A stretch of 64,000 nt of DNA from Roseivivax halodurans JCM 10272. Its GTDB lineage: Bacteria; Pseudomonadota; Alphaproteobacteria; Rhodobacterales; Rhodobacteraceae. This document shows, in pieces, positions 391 through 56,420 of the stretch. The position numbers and the translations under genes are program-made. Position 1 is the first letter of the stretch; every line of letters begins with the position of its first letter. The notes below the pieces were generated by a model, which was not told where the DNA came from, did no database searches, and saw only the letters and a program-made list of their open reading frames with translations. Where the stretch lies: assembly GCF_000521785.1 (NCBI RefSeq), contig NZ_JALZ01000007.1, forward strand, positions 62,001 through 126,000, in the 5' to 3' direction.

Positions 391-430
391 CTTCTTCTTG
401 GCGAAAATACTCCCGCCGGAGGCTCCGCCA
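391..430. repeat. Dispersed hairpin repeat, copy 1 (short-arm variant)
   Basis: CTTCTTCTTGGCGAAAATAC followed by TCC and a CGGAG/CTCCG hairpin. The same core recurs at about 30606, 37184, 41010, 42392 (inverted), 50625 and 56370 (inverted). Read on the minus strand this copy gives a hairpin and then TATTTT, so it could terminate transcription after the HAD phosphatase gene. Confidence 0.75.
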
Positions 431-30605: not shown

Positions 30606-30652
30606 CTTCTTCTTGACGGAAATATCCCGGGGGTCTGGGGGCAGAGCCCCCA
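30606..30652. repeat. Dispersed hairpin repeat, copy 2 (long-arm variant)
   Basis: CTTCTTCTTGACGGAAATAT, then CCCGGGGGTC and a GGGGGC-AGA-GCCCCC hairpin. It lies between the acsF stop and puhE start. Read on the minus strand it gives a hairpin followed by ATATTTCC, a possible partial terminator after acsF. Confidence 0.8.
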
Positions 30653-30683
30653 GCCTTGGCCTCGATATGTGCCCGGACCACCA

Positions 30684-35522: not shown

Positions 35523-36183
35523 CCCCGCAGCTCCAACGCGTGCGAGATGTAGAAGCCCGAGGTGACCCGCCCGAGATCCCGGACCTCGCCGCCGAGCACC
35601 GCGGCGAGCCGCTCCGGCACGTGCGGCACCATGACAGGCGAGCGGTCCGAGCGCGGGAAGAGCTTGCCCGCGTACCACATCGCCATCAGCGCGCGCGTCC
35701 TCGGCGCGACGGTGAAGACGGCACTGCGGCGCGTGTGCTGCATGAGGCTGTGGAGCCGCGCCGCGATGTCGCCCTCGCGGTAGTAGATCAGGCTGTCCAT
35801 GGCGATCACGTGATCGAAGCGGCCAAGCGCGGGATCTGTCATGTCGCCCGCGGCGAAGGTGACGCGCGCCGTCAGCGCCTCCGGCATGCGCGCCTCGGCC
35901 ACCGACACGAGCTGCGGCGAGAGATCCACCGCCACCACTTCCGCGCCCCGCTCTGCCAGCGCCTGGCTCATCTGACCCGCGCCGCATCCGGCATCGAGCA
36001 CCCGCGCGCCCACCAGATCGCCCGGCAACGCCGCCAGCAGCCGCTCGCGCATCGCGTCGCGCCCGGCGCGGACGGTCGCCCGGATCCGGCTCACCGGCGC
36101 GTCCGAGGTGAGCCGCGCCCAGGTCTCGGTCGCGGTGCGGTCGAAGTAGTCCTCGACGCGGGAACGGGTGGCTTCGTAGCTCA

Positions 36184-36184
<1 letters not shown>
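35519..36184 (-). CDS. bchM: Mg-protoporphyrin IX methyltransferase
   Basis: A 221-residue SAM-dependent methyltransferase. Motif I ARVLDAGCGAGQMS is at about residues 60-73, VVAVDLSP at about 82-89 and DHVIAMDSLIYY at about 124-135. The N-terminus VEDYFDRTATETWARLT is the BchM signature. It methylates the 13-propionate of Mg-protoporphyrin IX, between BchH chelation and AcsF cyclisation. Its ATG shares a base with the bchL stop and its stop overlaps the lhaA start. Confidence 0.96.
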
Positions 36185-40826
<4,642 letters not shown>

Positions 40827-40837
<11 letters not shown>

Positions 40838-42383
40838 AATGGGCCTTCGCCTCGTAGAGGGTCTCGACGCCGATCTCGGTCTCGCCGCGCGAAGCGGCGA
40901 AAGCCTCGGTGTTCCGCCGCGCCTTGCCGCGCACGAAGAACGGGATCTTCTTCAACTCCTGCTCGGCCGCAGGCAGCCAGACGACTTCCACCGCAGCGCC
41001 GACGTTGTCCCTCTTCTTGACGGAAATATCCCGGGGGGTCTGGGGGGCGGAGCCCCCCTCCTCAGGCGACGCATTCGCCGTGCCGTGATGCGAAGGGCCG
41101 GCGGCGTCGTGGAACTCGAAATCCTCGCGGAACATCGTCAGAAGATGCTCCTCGAGTCCCATCACGAGCGGATGCACCAGGGTGTCGAAGAGCACGTTCG
41201 CGCCCTCGATGCCCATGACGGGGGCGTAGCGGGCGGGGAAGTCCTGGACGTGCACCGGCGCCGAGATCACCGCGCAGGGGATGCCGAGGCGCTTGCCGAT
41301 ATGGCGCTCCATCTGCGTGCCGAGGATGAGCTCGGGAGACGCGGCCTCGATCGCCGCCTCCACCTCGAGGTAATCGTCGGTGATCAGCGCGGTCACGCCG
41401 TAATCCTTGGCGAGCACACGGATGGGTCGCGCCATCTCGCGGTTGTAGCAGCCGAGACCCACGACCTCGAAGCCCATCTCGTCGCGGGCGACACGCGCCA
41501 TGGCCGCGACGTGGGTGCCGTCCCCGAAGACGAAGACCCGCTTGCCGGTCAGGTAGGTGCTGTCGACCGACACCGAATACCATGGCAGCCGCAGTCTTTC
41601 CTCGTCGAGGCGGGGTTCCACATCGAGATGCTGCGCCACTTCGGCCACGAAATCGCGCGTCGCGCCCGCGCCGATGGGGACGACCCTGGTGAAGGGAAGG
41701 CCGAGCTCGCACTCCATCCAGCGGCAGGCGCTCTCGCCCGTCTCTGGATACATGAGGACGTTGAGATGCGCCGCACCGAGGCGGGTGATATCCTCCGGGC
41801 TCGCCCCGTAAGGCGCGCAGACATTCACCGCCACGCCCATCTCCGACAGGAGCCGCGTCACTTCGGTGATGTCGTCGCGGTGACGGAAGCCGAGCGCGGT
41901 CGGCCCGATCAGGTTGACGGTCGGGGCCTCTGTCCGCTCGCAGGGTTTCGCGAGGGTGCGGATAATCTGGTAGAGGGTCTCGTCCGCGCCGAAGTTTTCC
42001 TTGCGCTGGTAGGACGGCAACTCGAGCGGGATGACCGGCACCGGCAGGCCGATCGTCGCGGCCATGCCGCCGGGATCGTCCTGGATGAGCTCTGCGGTGC
42101 AGGACGCCCCGACGATCATCGCCTGCGGCCGGAACCGGGCATAGGCCTCCTCGCAGGCGGTGCGGAAGAGATCGGCGGTATCCGAGCCGAGGTCGCGCGC
42201 TTGGAAGGTCGTGTAGGTCACCGGCGGGCGGTGATTGCGGCGCTCGATCATGGTGAAGAGGAGATCGGCGTAGGTATCCCCCTGCGGCGCGTGCAGGACG
42301 TAATGCAGGCCCGTCATCGCGGTCGCGACGCGCATCGCACCCACATGGGGCGGACCCTCGTATGTCCAGACCGAGAGCTTCAT
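40827..42383 (-). CDS. bchB: Dark-operative protochlorophyllide reductase subunit BchB, with repeat-derived linker
   Basis: A 518-residue nitrogenase-like subunit. The N-terminus [20 protein letters not shown] is family-typical, and Asp36 (PQGDTYADL) matches the unusual Asp ligand of the shared 4Fe-4S cluster. The three-domain core runs to about residue 425. A small C-terminal PCP_red domain (about 465-518, [23 protein letters not shown] in part) follows. Between them, residues about 441-458 ([18 protein letters not shown]) are encoded by an in-frame copy of the dispersed hairpin repeat. The reading frame stays open through it and the C-terminal domain is intact. BchB and BchN bind protochlorophyllide and reduce ring D. 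Confidence 0.95.
41010..41064. repeat. Dispersed hairpin repeat, copy 4, translated inside bchB
   Basis: CTCTTCTTGACGGAAATATC, then CCGGGGGGTC and a GGGGGGC-GGA-GCCCCCC hairpin. It lies wholly within bchB and is read on the minus strand as 18 codons with no stop. Confidence 0.85.
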
Positions 42384-42391
42384 GGCGCGCG

Positions 42392-44284
<1,893 letters not shown>

Positions 44285-44375
44285 CTATTCACATCGAAAC
44301 CGCCGAAGCTCACCCAGAATCATGTAAGCTTTTAACATTTAATGCTTTATGCGGAGAGACTGCGTAAAGTAGACT

Positions 44376-44393
44376 TGTCAGATCAAATTGACG
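44376..44393. promoter_or_regulatory. Second PpsR-type box, upstream of ppaA
   Basis: TGTCA-N8-TGACG, one base off the TGTCA-N8-TGACA palindrome and with the usual 12-base inner spacing. It lies 92 bases from the first box, allowing cooperative binding or looping. Confidence 0.6.
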
Positions 44394-44409
44394 CTCGCAC
44401 TGGCGAGCG
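44392..44409 (+). other. Stem-loop in the ppaA leader
   Basis: A 7-bp perfect stem CGCTCGC/GCGAGCG with a 4-base loop, overlapping the edge of the second PpsR-type box and followed by CTTTGCT. It might be an mRNA leader element or part of an operator. Confidence 0.35.
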
Positions 44410-44500
44410 CTTTGCTAAGCTGACACACTCACGTTGACCGGGTCGCGGACGGACCATCGTGCCCGCGACCCCCGGCCACAACCGGCAGAAGGTGATGCGC

Positions 44501-45265
44501 ATGACCCAGATGACGATCGCACCGGACGACCGGGCCGATATTGCCTCGCTCGCCGGGACCGTTGTCTCACTTCTGAACGGGCGCCTCGGCGAGCGCGTCG
44601 TGAAGCGCGAGGGCACGGCGACGCGGTACTTGCTCGAAGCGGCGCGTGCTCCCGGCTTCTCCCCGTCCGACGTGCTGGCGCGCCTGCGGGCCCTCCCGCT
44701 TCCGGATACCTCCCTGCTGGGCACCTGCATTCCGGAGGCGGCAAGGACTCTTGGCGCACTTTGGCTCAGCGACGAGCTCGGCTTTGCGAGCGTCTCGATA
44801 GCGACATCCCGCCTGCAGGGTCTGGTGGCACAGATGGCACCGCCCGCCATATCCGAGACGAGATATGGGACCGAGACTCGCTCCGCCCTCCTCATCCTGC
44901 CGCCGGGAGAGACACATACGCTTGGGATCCATGTCGCTGCGGCGCAATTGCGCCGGCACGGCCTGTCGGTGCGGCTCATGTTCGGCCCCGATGAGGCGAC
45001 GTTCCTGAGCACCCTGCAGAAAGATCCCTATGATCTCATCATGTTCGCCTGCCCTCGGCCCGAGCTCCTTGCCTTCGTGACGCGATTGGTATCAGTGCTG
45101 CGGAACACAAGCGCGTCCGCCGGGTTGACAGTTTTAGGGGGCGCCGTCCTCGACCGTCAGGACAACCTGACACAATTCACAGGCGTGGATCTCGTCACGA
45201 ACGATATCCGGGCCGCCCTGCTTCGGCAGGAGGCGCTCGCCGCCGGAACCATTATGGTGCGATAG
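44501..45265 (+). CDS. ppaA: PpsR antirepressor PpaA/AerR (cobalamin-binding)
   Basis: A protein of about 254 residues. The C-terminal half (about 105-245) is a B12-binding Rossmann-like domain: PPGETHTLGIHVAAAQLRRHGLSVRLMF contains the E-x-H-x-L-G block of the SCHIC/AerR group, and GGAVLDRQDNL follows. In Rhodobacter, PpaA/AerR binds cobalamin and counteracts PpsR/CrtJ in response to light. The start is uncertain: ATG 44501 has AGAAGG at ideal spacing, while ATG 44495 and GTG 44459 are in frame. Its TAG abuts the ppsR ATG with no gap, so the antirepressor and repressor are made together. Confidence 0.9.
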   Translation: MTQMTIAPDDRADIASLAGTVVSLLNGRLGERVVKREGTATRYLLEAARAPGFSPSDVLARLRALPLPDTSLLGTCIPEAARTLGALWLSDELGFASVSIATSRLQGLVAQMAPPAISETRYGTETRSALLILPPGETHTLGIHVAAAQLRRHGLSVRLMFGPDEATFLSTLQKDPYDLIMFACPRPELLAFVTRLVSVLRNTSASAGLTVLGGAVLDRQDNLTQFTGVDLVTNDIRAALLRQEALAAGTIMVR

Positions 45266-46687
45266 ATGAGCAATGCTCCGAAGCCGCGTATGCGCGACAC
45301 AGTCTCAGACGGAATCGATGCGTCCTATCTCGCATCGGTGGTTGCCGCGGCTTCCGACCTTTCGCTGCGCGTTGCGGACGACGGTACCGTGACGGAGATG
45401 ATGGTCACACCCATGCAGGCCGCAGAAATGCGGTTGCCCGACTGTAGCGGACGCCCGGTGGCGGAGAGCCTGACGGGGGAAAGTCAGGCCAAATTCAACG
45501 CCGCGCGATCCGCCCTGATCGACGGAGCGCCGCCGCGCCGTCCGATCGAGCTCAACCATATCCTGCCCCACGGACGCGAGCTGCCGGTCCGATACACTCT
45601 GATACCTCACCCGGAAGGCGGATTCCTCATGCTCGGCCGGGATCTCTCGGCGGTTGCGGAGACGCAGGCACAGCTCGTTCAGGCCCAGATGTCCCTCGAA
45701 CAGGGATACGAGGCCCGGCGCGAATACGATGCACGCTACCGCCTGCTGCTGCGGTCGGTGCACGATCCGATCATCTTCGCCTCCGCATCCGACGGCACGA
45801 TCAGCGATCTCAACGAACCCGCGGCGTCGATCCTCGGCGGCACGCGCGAGAGCCTCGTCGGGCAGGGGCTCGCCGCGGAGTTCGACGATTGCGACCGGGC
45901 CGAGATGATGGACCGCCTGATGGACGCGGCCGGCAGCGACACGGAGCGCAGCCTCAAGATGACGGCCCGCCGATCCGGGCGCGAGGTCGAGCTGTCGGCG
46001 CAGATGTTCCGGGCCGCGGGCGAACGCTCGCTCCTCTGCCGCCTGAACGCACGGGCGGACAGCCTGGAGACGCCGGCCGGCCTCGCCCGAGACCTCGGCG
46101 TGATGTTCGAACGCACCGCCGACGCGATCCTCTTCACCGACCTTCGCGGCGAGATCCTGTCCTGCAACGACGCCTTCCTCGATCTGCTGAACGCCGCCCA
46201 GGTCGCGGAAGTGAAGGCACAGAACATCTCGTCCTATTTCGGCCGCGGGCGTGTCGATCTGAACGTCATCGTGGAAAATGCGCGCCGGGCGGGGCAGATG
46301 CGGCTCTACGCCACCAAGCTTCTGACCGAGCTCGGGGGCGCGACCCCGGTCGAGATCTCGGTGACCTATCTCAACGACCGCTCGAACCCGGTTCTGGCCT
46401 ATCTCATCCGTGACGCGAGCCGGAGCGAAGCGCTGCGCGGCGCGCAACCGAACGGCGCAGCCGACAATGCCCGATCGGTGATGGAGCTGGTCGGATCGGC
46501 CACGCTGAAAGAGATCGTGGCCGAGACTACGGAAGTCGTCGAGAAGATGTGCATCGAGACGGCGGTGAGTCTCACGCGCAACAACCGCGTTGCGGCCGCA
46601 GAGATGCTCGGCCTGTCGCGCCAGAGCCTCTATGTGAAGCTGCGCAAGTACGACCTCCTCGATCGCAACACGGGCACCGAGGCCTGA
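45266..46687 (+). CDS. ppsR: Redox-sensing photosynthesis repressor PpsR/CrtJ
   Basis: A 473-residue repressor. An N-terminal PAS-like domain (about 20-130), a Gln-rich linker helix (AETQAQLVQAQMSLEQ), two PAS domains (about 150-265 and 280-395) and a Fis-type HTH (about 425-470, NNRVAAAEMLGLSRQSLYVKLRKYDL) are visible. Cys258 and Cys429 lie where the two redox-active cysteines of Rhodobacter PpsR are expected. It binds TGT-N12-ACA boxes to repress bch, crt and puc genes under oxygen. It is directly downstream of ppaA and 48 bases upstream of bchG; boxes flank it on both sides. Confidence 0.97.
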   Translation: MSNAPKPRMRDTVSDGIDASYLASVVAAASDLSLRVADDGTVTEMMVTPMQAAEMRLPDCSGRPVAESLTGESQAKFNAARSALIDGAPPRRPIELNHILPHGRELPVRYTLIPHPEGGFLMLGRDLSAVAETQAQLVQAQMSLEQGYEARREYDARYRLLLRSVHDPIIFASASDGTISDLNEPAASILGGTRESLVGQGLAAEFDDCDRAEMMDRLMDAAGSDTERSLKMTARRSGREVELSAQMFRAAGERSLLCRLNARADSLETPAGLARDLGVMFERTADAILFTDLRGEILSCNDAFLDLLNAAQVAEVKAQNISSYFGRGRVDLNVIVENARRAGQMRLYATKLLTELGGATPVEISVTYLNDRSNPVLAYLIRDASRSEALRGAQPNGAADNARSVMELVGSATLKEIVAETTEVVEKMCIETAVSLTRNNRVAAAEMLGLSRQSLYVKLRKYDLLDRNTGTEA

Positions 46688-50624: not shown

Positions 50625-50663
50625 CTCTTCTTCTTGGCGAAAATACTCCCGCCGGAGGCTCCG
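50625..50663. repeat. Dispersed hairpin repeat, copy 6 (short-arm variant)
   Basis: CTCTTCTTCTTGGCGAAAAT, then ACTCCCGCCGGAGGCTCCG, nearly identical to copy 1 at 391. It is in the plus orientation, downstream of idi in a 130-base spacer before eutB, so its A-rich stretch precedes rather than follows the hairpin for idi transcription. Confidence 0.8.
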
Positions 50664-56369: not shown

Positions 56370-56420
56370 GCGAGGGGCCAGCCCCTCGCGCTCCCCGGAG
56401 TATTTTTGCCAAGAAGAAGG
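56370..56420. repeat. Dispersed hairpin repeat, copy 7 (inverted)
   Basis: A GCGAGGGGC/GCCCCTCGC stem, then GCTCCCCGGAGTATTTTTGCC and AAGAAGAAGG, the family consensus in reverse. In the plus direction it reads hairpin then TATTTTT and could terminate doeD transcription; glpK is convergent. Confidence 0.8.

Follow-up and report, generated by a model that had tools for sequence, protein, structure and literature searches.

A resident hairpin repeat family appears to supply the interdomain linker of BchB in many Rhodobacterales lineages

Palindromic repeats inside coding sequences are familiar chiefly from Rickettsia and Wolbachia, whose genomes are decaying. A stretch of 64,000 nucleotides from Roseivivax halodurans JCM 10272, here called the window, raises the question of how such a repeat can sit inside a conserved gene and what keeps it there. 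A sequence-only reading of the window had placed a hairpin repeat, seen elsewhere in its spacers, in frame within bchB, which encodes subunit B of the light-independent protochlorophyllide reductase, and took it for a non-coding element domesticated as a protein linker.

The repeat copy is indeed in bchB, at window positions 41013-41060 (Table 1). Its core TTCTTGACGGAAATATCC has three exact matches in the window, at 30610(+), 41014(+) and 42418(-), where only 0.01 matches at up to 3 mismatches are expected by chance. Genome-wide, this core is matched 45 times at up to 2 mismatches and a degenerate core, CTTCTTGNNNNAAATAYYCC, 107 times, the reversed-pattern control giving 0 in each case. On the strand read by bchB, the unit runs as a G/C hairpin, CCCCC, GGGATATTT or GGAGTATTT, 4 variable bases and CAAGAAGAAG. 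Its conserved extent is about 45-75 bp, with the hairpin internal and the 3′ box outside the hairpin.

We examined 105 copies, which are not every core match in the genome (100 of the 107 degenerate-core matches were listed). The G/C-hairpin tail is found in 77 of them and a short tail, GCCGGAGGC, in 28. The covariance models of Rfam 15 gave no match with an E value up to 1 in window positions 36000-46000.

Table 1. Genes and repeat copies discussed in the text; positions are those of the window unless a contig is named.
Feature	Position	Strand	Basis or place
bchB, light-independent protochlorophyllide reductase subunit B, 518 aa	40827..42383	-	ORF list, Pfam, solved relatives
In-frame bchB copy, encodes about 16 residues	41013..41060	-	core match, copy survey
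Hairpin of the bchB copy, followed on the coding strand by CCCCCC, the GGGATATTT core and 3′ box CCGTCAAGAAG	41042..41058		hairpin from RNAfold prediction
bchN-bchB junction copy, orientation opposite to the bchB copy	42392..42439	+	core match
Copy between bchH and the next downstream gene (36184-37104)	37187..37228	-	spacer
Copy between two minus-strand genes	30609..30653	-	spacer
Short-tail copy (CGCCGGAGGC)	50630..50659	-	spacer
Copy between convergent genes	56371..56416	+	spacer
Short-tail copy near the window start	394..423	-	spacer
DUF4130-uracil-DNA-glycosylase (UDG) fusion gene with in-frame copy	L207 714..2196	-	also L231-L235

The family is normally non-coding, as had been supposed. 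By gene calls from a home-made codon score, 101 of the 105 copies are intergenic, one overlaps the end of bchN and three fall in called ORFs, and clear intragenic copies are rare, numbering 2. At least one gene 3′ end adjoins 97 of the 101 intergenic copies, which lie in 37 convergent, 60 tandem and 4 divergent spacers. The window's own spacers of at least 60 nt (n = 26) comprise 2 convergent, 19 tandem and 5 divergent ones. Against this baseline, the copies are enriched in convergent spacers (Fisher p 0.004) and depleted in divergent ones (p 0.018). In tandem spacers, the two orientations occur 35 and 25 times, so the repeat is no strict one-way terminator and an orientation-specific terminator role is weak.

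One copy lies at the bchN-bchB junction. This junction copy contains the bchN stop codon TGA (42429-42431), and its hairpin ends 8 nt upstream of the bchB ATG, at the expected place of the ribosome-binding site. It is also present in L032 and L033 and is not recognisable in L037. In L032 and L033, bchN appears to terminate earlier than here, where the TGA falls inside the repeat. Positions 41012-41045 and 42404-42437 form 34-nt inverted arms, 91% complementary and 1358 nt apart, that flank most of bchB; they could pair in the mRNA or support an inversion.

The protein is undisturbed on both sides of the copy, and its frame is open, as the sequence-only reading had it. Pfam places Oxidored_nitro (PF00148) at residues 12-406 and PCP_red (PF08369) at 469-513, both intact, so the element sits between two intact domains. 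The solved relatives 9buo, 8vqi and 3aek match BchB along its full length. Residues 441-458 are an 18-residue peptide encoded by the minus strand of 41010-41063, which agrees to one base with the span given in the sequence-only reading; the element proper covers about 41013-41060, so the ends of the peptide are flank. AlphaFold predicts the linker (residues 423-467) without secondary structure and scores residues 421-460 at pLDDT 32-37, in a model that is itself mediocre (mean pLDDT 68) and low at residues 376-423 too. A BchB protein with an element-derived linker is presumably made.

Is this copy peculiar to R. halodurans? We compared 98 BchB linkers, 18 from a search for relatives and 80 from genome contigs (the best 80 of 572), leaving out the incomplete L048. 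These linkers are G/C-rich and hypervariable, with lengths of 37-81 aa. Compared with the core words, 21 of them match at up to 2 mismatches on the sense strand and three more at 3; on the antisense strand, none of the 98 matches at up to 3. All 21 share one orientation and one frame, which yields [DS]-I-S or something close to it. Among the three weaker linkers, L127 and L137 use another frame, that of the DUF4130 gene, and weak or decayed copies are discerned by eye in L070, L091, L098 and L117. A repeat unique to this species is ruled out by these relatives, and the bchB copy is no one-off event of this lineage.

A gap at residues 441-458 had been expected in relatives, and no clean gap is found there. 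In the genus, the linkers of four element-free members measure 40-51 aa and those of four members with the element 53-62 aa. The element-bearing linkers are thus longer by less than the element itself, and simple insertion is not displayed. The sequence at the element position is unrelated in the four element-free members, and the BchB linkers compared include no clean empty site.

A different hairpin-like piece, encoding GGSMPP, recurs in the BchB linkers L065, L106, L111, L115, L116, L122 and L123; some of these BchB are Cereibacter-like or Roseinatronobacter-like. In the solved chains 9buo and 8vqi, the linker carries GGSIPPEA. The GGSMPP piece may represent half of a second type of repeat, namely its hairpin.

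The linker element is accompanied by its family. Of 149 family genomes, 35 contain the core in its CWTCTTG form, a pattern with 0 matches in G186, G189, G190 and G192 although their BchB has the element. Hairpin-side patterns recovered the family in these four genomes, with other 3′ boxes. A linker element in a distant relative lacking the family would speak against a repeat insertion. Distant relatives do have the linker element, but all 21 element-bearing genomes searched (a search without the three further element or weak-element lineages L096, L109 and L137) carry the family elsewhere too, an outcome in favour of the repeat reading. Across the genus, genomes whose BchB carries the element hold 47-107 copies (four genomes, one clade on the BchB tree), and the four whose BchB lacks it hold 0-6.

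The 3′ boxes tell more, being lineage-specific, for example GAAACGAAGAAG, GAACATGGGAAG and GGATCAATGGAAG. They were read from 40 hairpin-side copies; 6 of these, being the bchB copy itself, did not enter the comparison. For 12 of 13 lineages, the BchB box resembles the dispersed copies of the host genome more than those of any other (0 of 20000 permutations); the sole exception, G191, had one comparison copy, and several other lineages only one or two. The mean score is 10.3 for the own genome and 5.6 for other genomes. This is our strongest result: the BchB linker element belongs to the current local repeat family. The linker has thus been filled from the resident family, either by repeated insertion or by an old insertion followed by gene conversion.

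The second clear in-frame copy is in a gene for a DUF4130-uracil-DNA-glycosylase fusion, in this genome and four congeners. There the element lies in the N-terminal part, ahead of the DUF4130 match, and is read in a frame different from that of bchB (PRTPEYFRQEE). It is present in five of nine genus genomes (G000, G001, G002, G003 and G007) and absent from G004, G005, G006 and G008; the five with it hold 36-107 family copies and the four without it 0, 0, 6 and 0. A single genus thus ranges from 36-107 copies (G000-G003, G007) to none (G004, G005, G008), and this contrast is a good setting to date the spread or loss of the family.

The remaining copy in a called ORF is in bchY (L170 1-1554; L263), at the N terminus. 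We set it aside as an intragenic case, since the gene's start is not certain and the repeat may instead belong to the bchX-bchY spacer. If an upstream ATG is used, BchY could gain an N-terminal extension from the repeat.

What history and what role do these copies point to? A mere likeness of G/C-rich, Pro/Gly-rich linkers to the repeat could be imagined from their composition and hypervariability. It is ruled out by codon-shuffled linkers: among 2940 of them, sense-strand matches number 0 at up to 2 mismatches and 7 at 3, against 21 of the 98 real ones at up to 2. The lineage-by-lineage agreement of the 3′ boxes also speaks against it, and we give it practically no weight. Far more credible is one ancient in-frame insertion that predates the divergence of most of the order and was then passed down by vertical descent, gene-converted to the dispersed copies and often lost. 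Place, strand and frame are identical in the 21 linkers, the decayed copies fit, and gene conversion would renew the 3′ box without shifting the copy or its frame. However, on a quick BchB tree of 96 rows, built with the linker excluded and without L050 (partial) and L135 (same genome as L045), the element requires 14-15 changes, 6 of them forced by strongly supported branches. A single gain then needs 29-30 losses, while 15 gains suffice if no loss is allowed. Moreover, the element is read in a different frame in L127 and L137 and takes different forms in the sister rows L099 and L101. The tree counts and the L099 and L101 forms favour turnover at the linker site, and we rate the single ancient insertion as a serious contender, at somewhat less than even chances.

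The element could alternatively be kept for a job in RNA or DNA, as a translation-coupled attenuator or an mRNA-stability hairpin setting bchB against the downstream bchH, with the peptide as by-product. In bchB and the DUF4130-UDG gene alike, the hairpin falls on the sense strand. GAT/AGT and ATT account for 39 of 40 codons at the D/S and I residues, where each gene's own usage would lead one to expect 9.8, and linkers chosen by the peptide [DS]IS alone still show GAT/AGT in 18/18 and ATT in 17/18. Between the bchB element's own copy and that of G003, the codon is kept at 14/14 shared residues, against 308/439 elsewhere (p 0.007). Such conservation is, however, predicted alike by recent arrival, by conversion and by an RNA-level role. 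In the DUF4130-UDG gene, it is clear for L231-L233 (14/14 in the element against 252/363) but not for L231-L232 (10/14 against 243/371). The tandem orientation of 35 to 25 and the C that breaks the T run in bchB copies are further points against the RNA or DNA job, which we regard as unlikely.

That C bears on the peptide. Intergenic copies are open in most frames (96, 94 and 99 of 102 in frames A, B and C, and 97, 96 and 55 on the antisense strand), so stop codons alone are insufficient to explain the frame used in BchB. A C follows TATTT in 20/22 frame-A bchB copies, against 36/102 intergenic copies of this genome and 4/34 of other lineages (pooled, 20/22 coding and 40/136 intergenic, p 5e-8), with the core words that picked the linkers ending in C and hence slightly biased toward it, though 2 mismatches were allowed. 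In the coding frame, this C yields a serine codon, and with the other bases the codon would be one for Phe, Leu, Cys, Trp, Tyr or a stop. The bias suggests a filter on the encoded peptide, and it also shortens the T run.

We prefer an explanation from tolerance. A small Rhodobacterales repeat family, with a G/C hairpin, a GGGATATTT/GGAGTATTT core and a lineage-specific 3′ box, resides mainly just past stop codons. Its copies would enter, or by gene conversion overwrite, the unstructured linker between the nitrogenase-like core and PCP_red, where a copy would be translated as about 15-25 residues. The copy would survive because this linker tolerates nearly any soluble sequence, given an open frame and an acceptable peptide.

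That the resident family supplies the BchB linker as such a tolerated, translated copy is, in our judgement, highly probable as a whole. The site would be refilled by insertion or conversion rather than retained for function, and a tolerated filler under a frame and peptide filter seems the likeliest state. Improbable to us is a standing acceptor site in the Rhodobacterales bchB linker, which the current hairpin family of each genome refills repeatedly in one orientation and frame, with coding copies tuned by the serine codon and the DNA serving as both linker peptide and hairpin signal in the bch operon mRNA.

Several known systems resemble the family in part. Like the Rickettsia palindromic elements (RPE) and the Wolbachia coding palindromes, it is a hairpin repeat that occurs between genes and in frame in conserved proteins, here those of bchB and the DUF4130-UDG gene, and is usually tolerated. 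RPE, as described in PMC2229807, measure 105-146 bp, have 12-bp terminal inverted repeats and occur in 19 reading frames, and the gmk product is active. Compared with RPE, the unit here is shorter at about 45-75 bp and is without the 12-bp terminal inverted repeats. Unlike RPE, its intragenic copies are rare, and a single interdomain linker hosts the repeat in many lineages, in each case as the local family version. The likeness to Rickettsia drawn in the sequence-only reading holds by analogy for the way the repeat works, which resembles RPE, while RPE membership is not supported and the selected function implied by domestication is conjectural.

The family also shares with REP, BIME and REPIN sequences the short intergenic hairpins, the more than 100 copies per genome and, here, the depletion between divergent genes (for REP, PMC3733652). 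In contrast to REP, neither a GTAG nor a CGTC tag is conserved: GTAG occurs in 5/105 copies, and CGTC in 33/105 only via a variable spacer, which has 29 variants. No RAYT transposase gene (Y1_Tnp, PF01797) is found in this genome by a search that finds it in 5 of 14 control genomes.

ERIC/RU-1 and Correia/NEMIS are MITE-like bacterial repeats whose open frames are fused in frame to proteins (PMC2229807). They measure 107-168 bp with TA ends and target duplications, whereas none of these features is seen here. As in intrinsic terminators, a G/C hairpin is followed by TATTT, mostly just past stop codons; unlike in them, there are few Ts in the run, conservation extends past it through the 3′ box, and the tandem orientations are mixed, as counted above. 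A literature search that covered few subscription papers found no paper naming the repeat or an in-frame repeat in bchB.

In summary, the case is broader than first described, and the sequences indicate that a resident hairpin family supplies the BchB interdomain linker in many lineages. The tolerance of coding repeats in Rickettsia and Wolbachia is easily blamed on weak selection; here, the hosts are free-living phototrophs and the protein is a key pigment enzyme. About 20 lineages stand as replicates, each with its own version of the repeat. These replicates allow the copies to be dated, insertion to be told from conversion, and the linker amino acids to be weighed against the mRNA hairpin as the target of selection.
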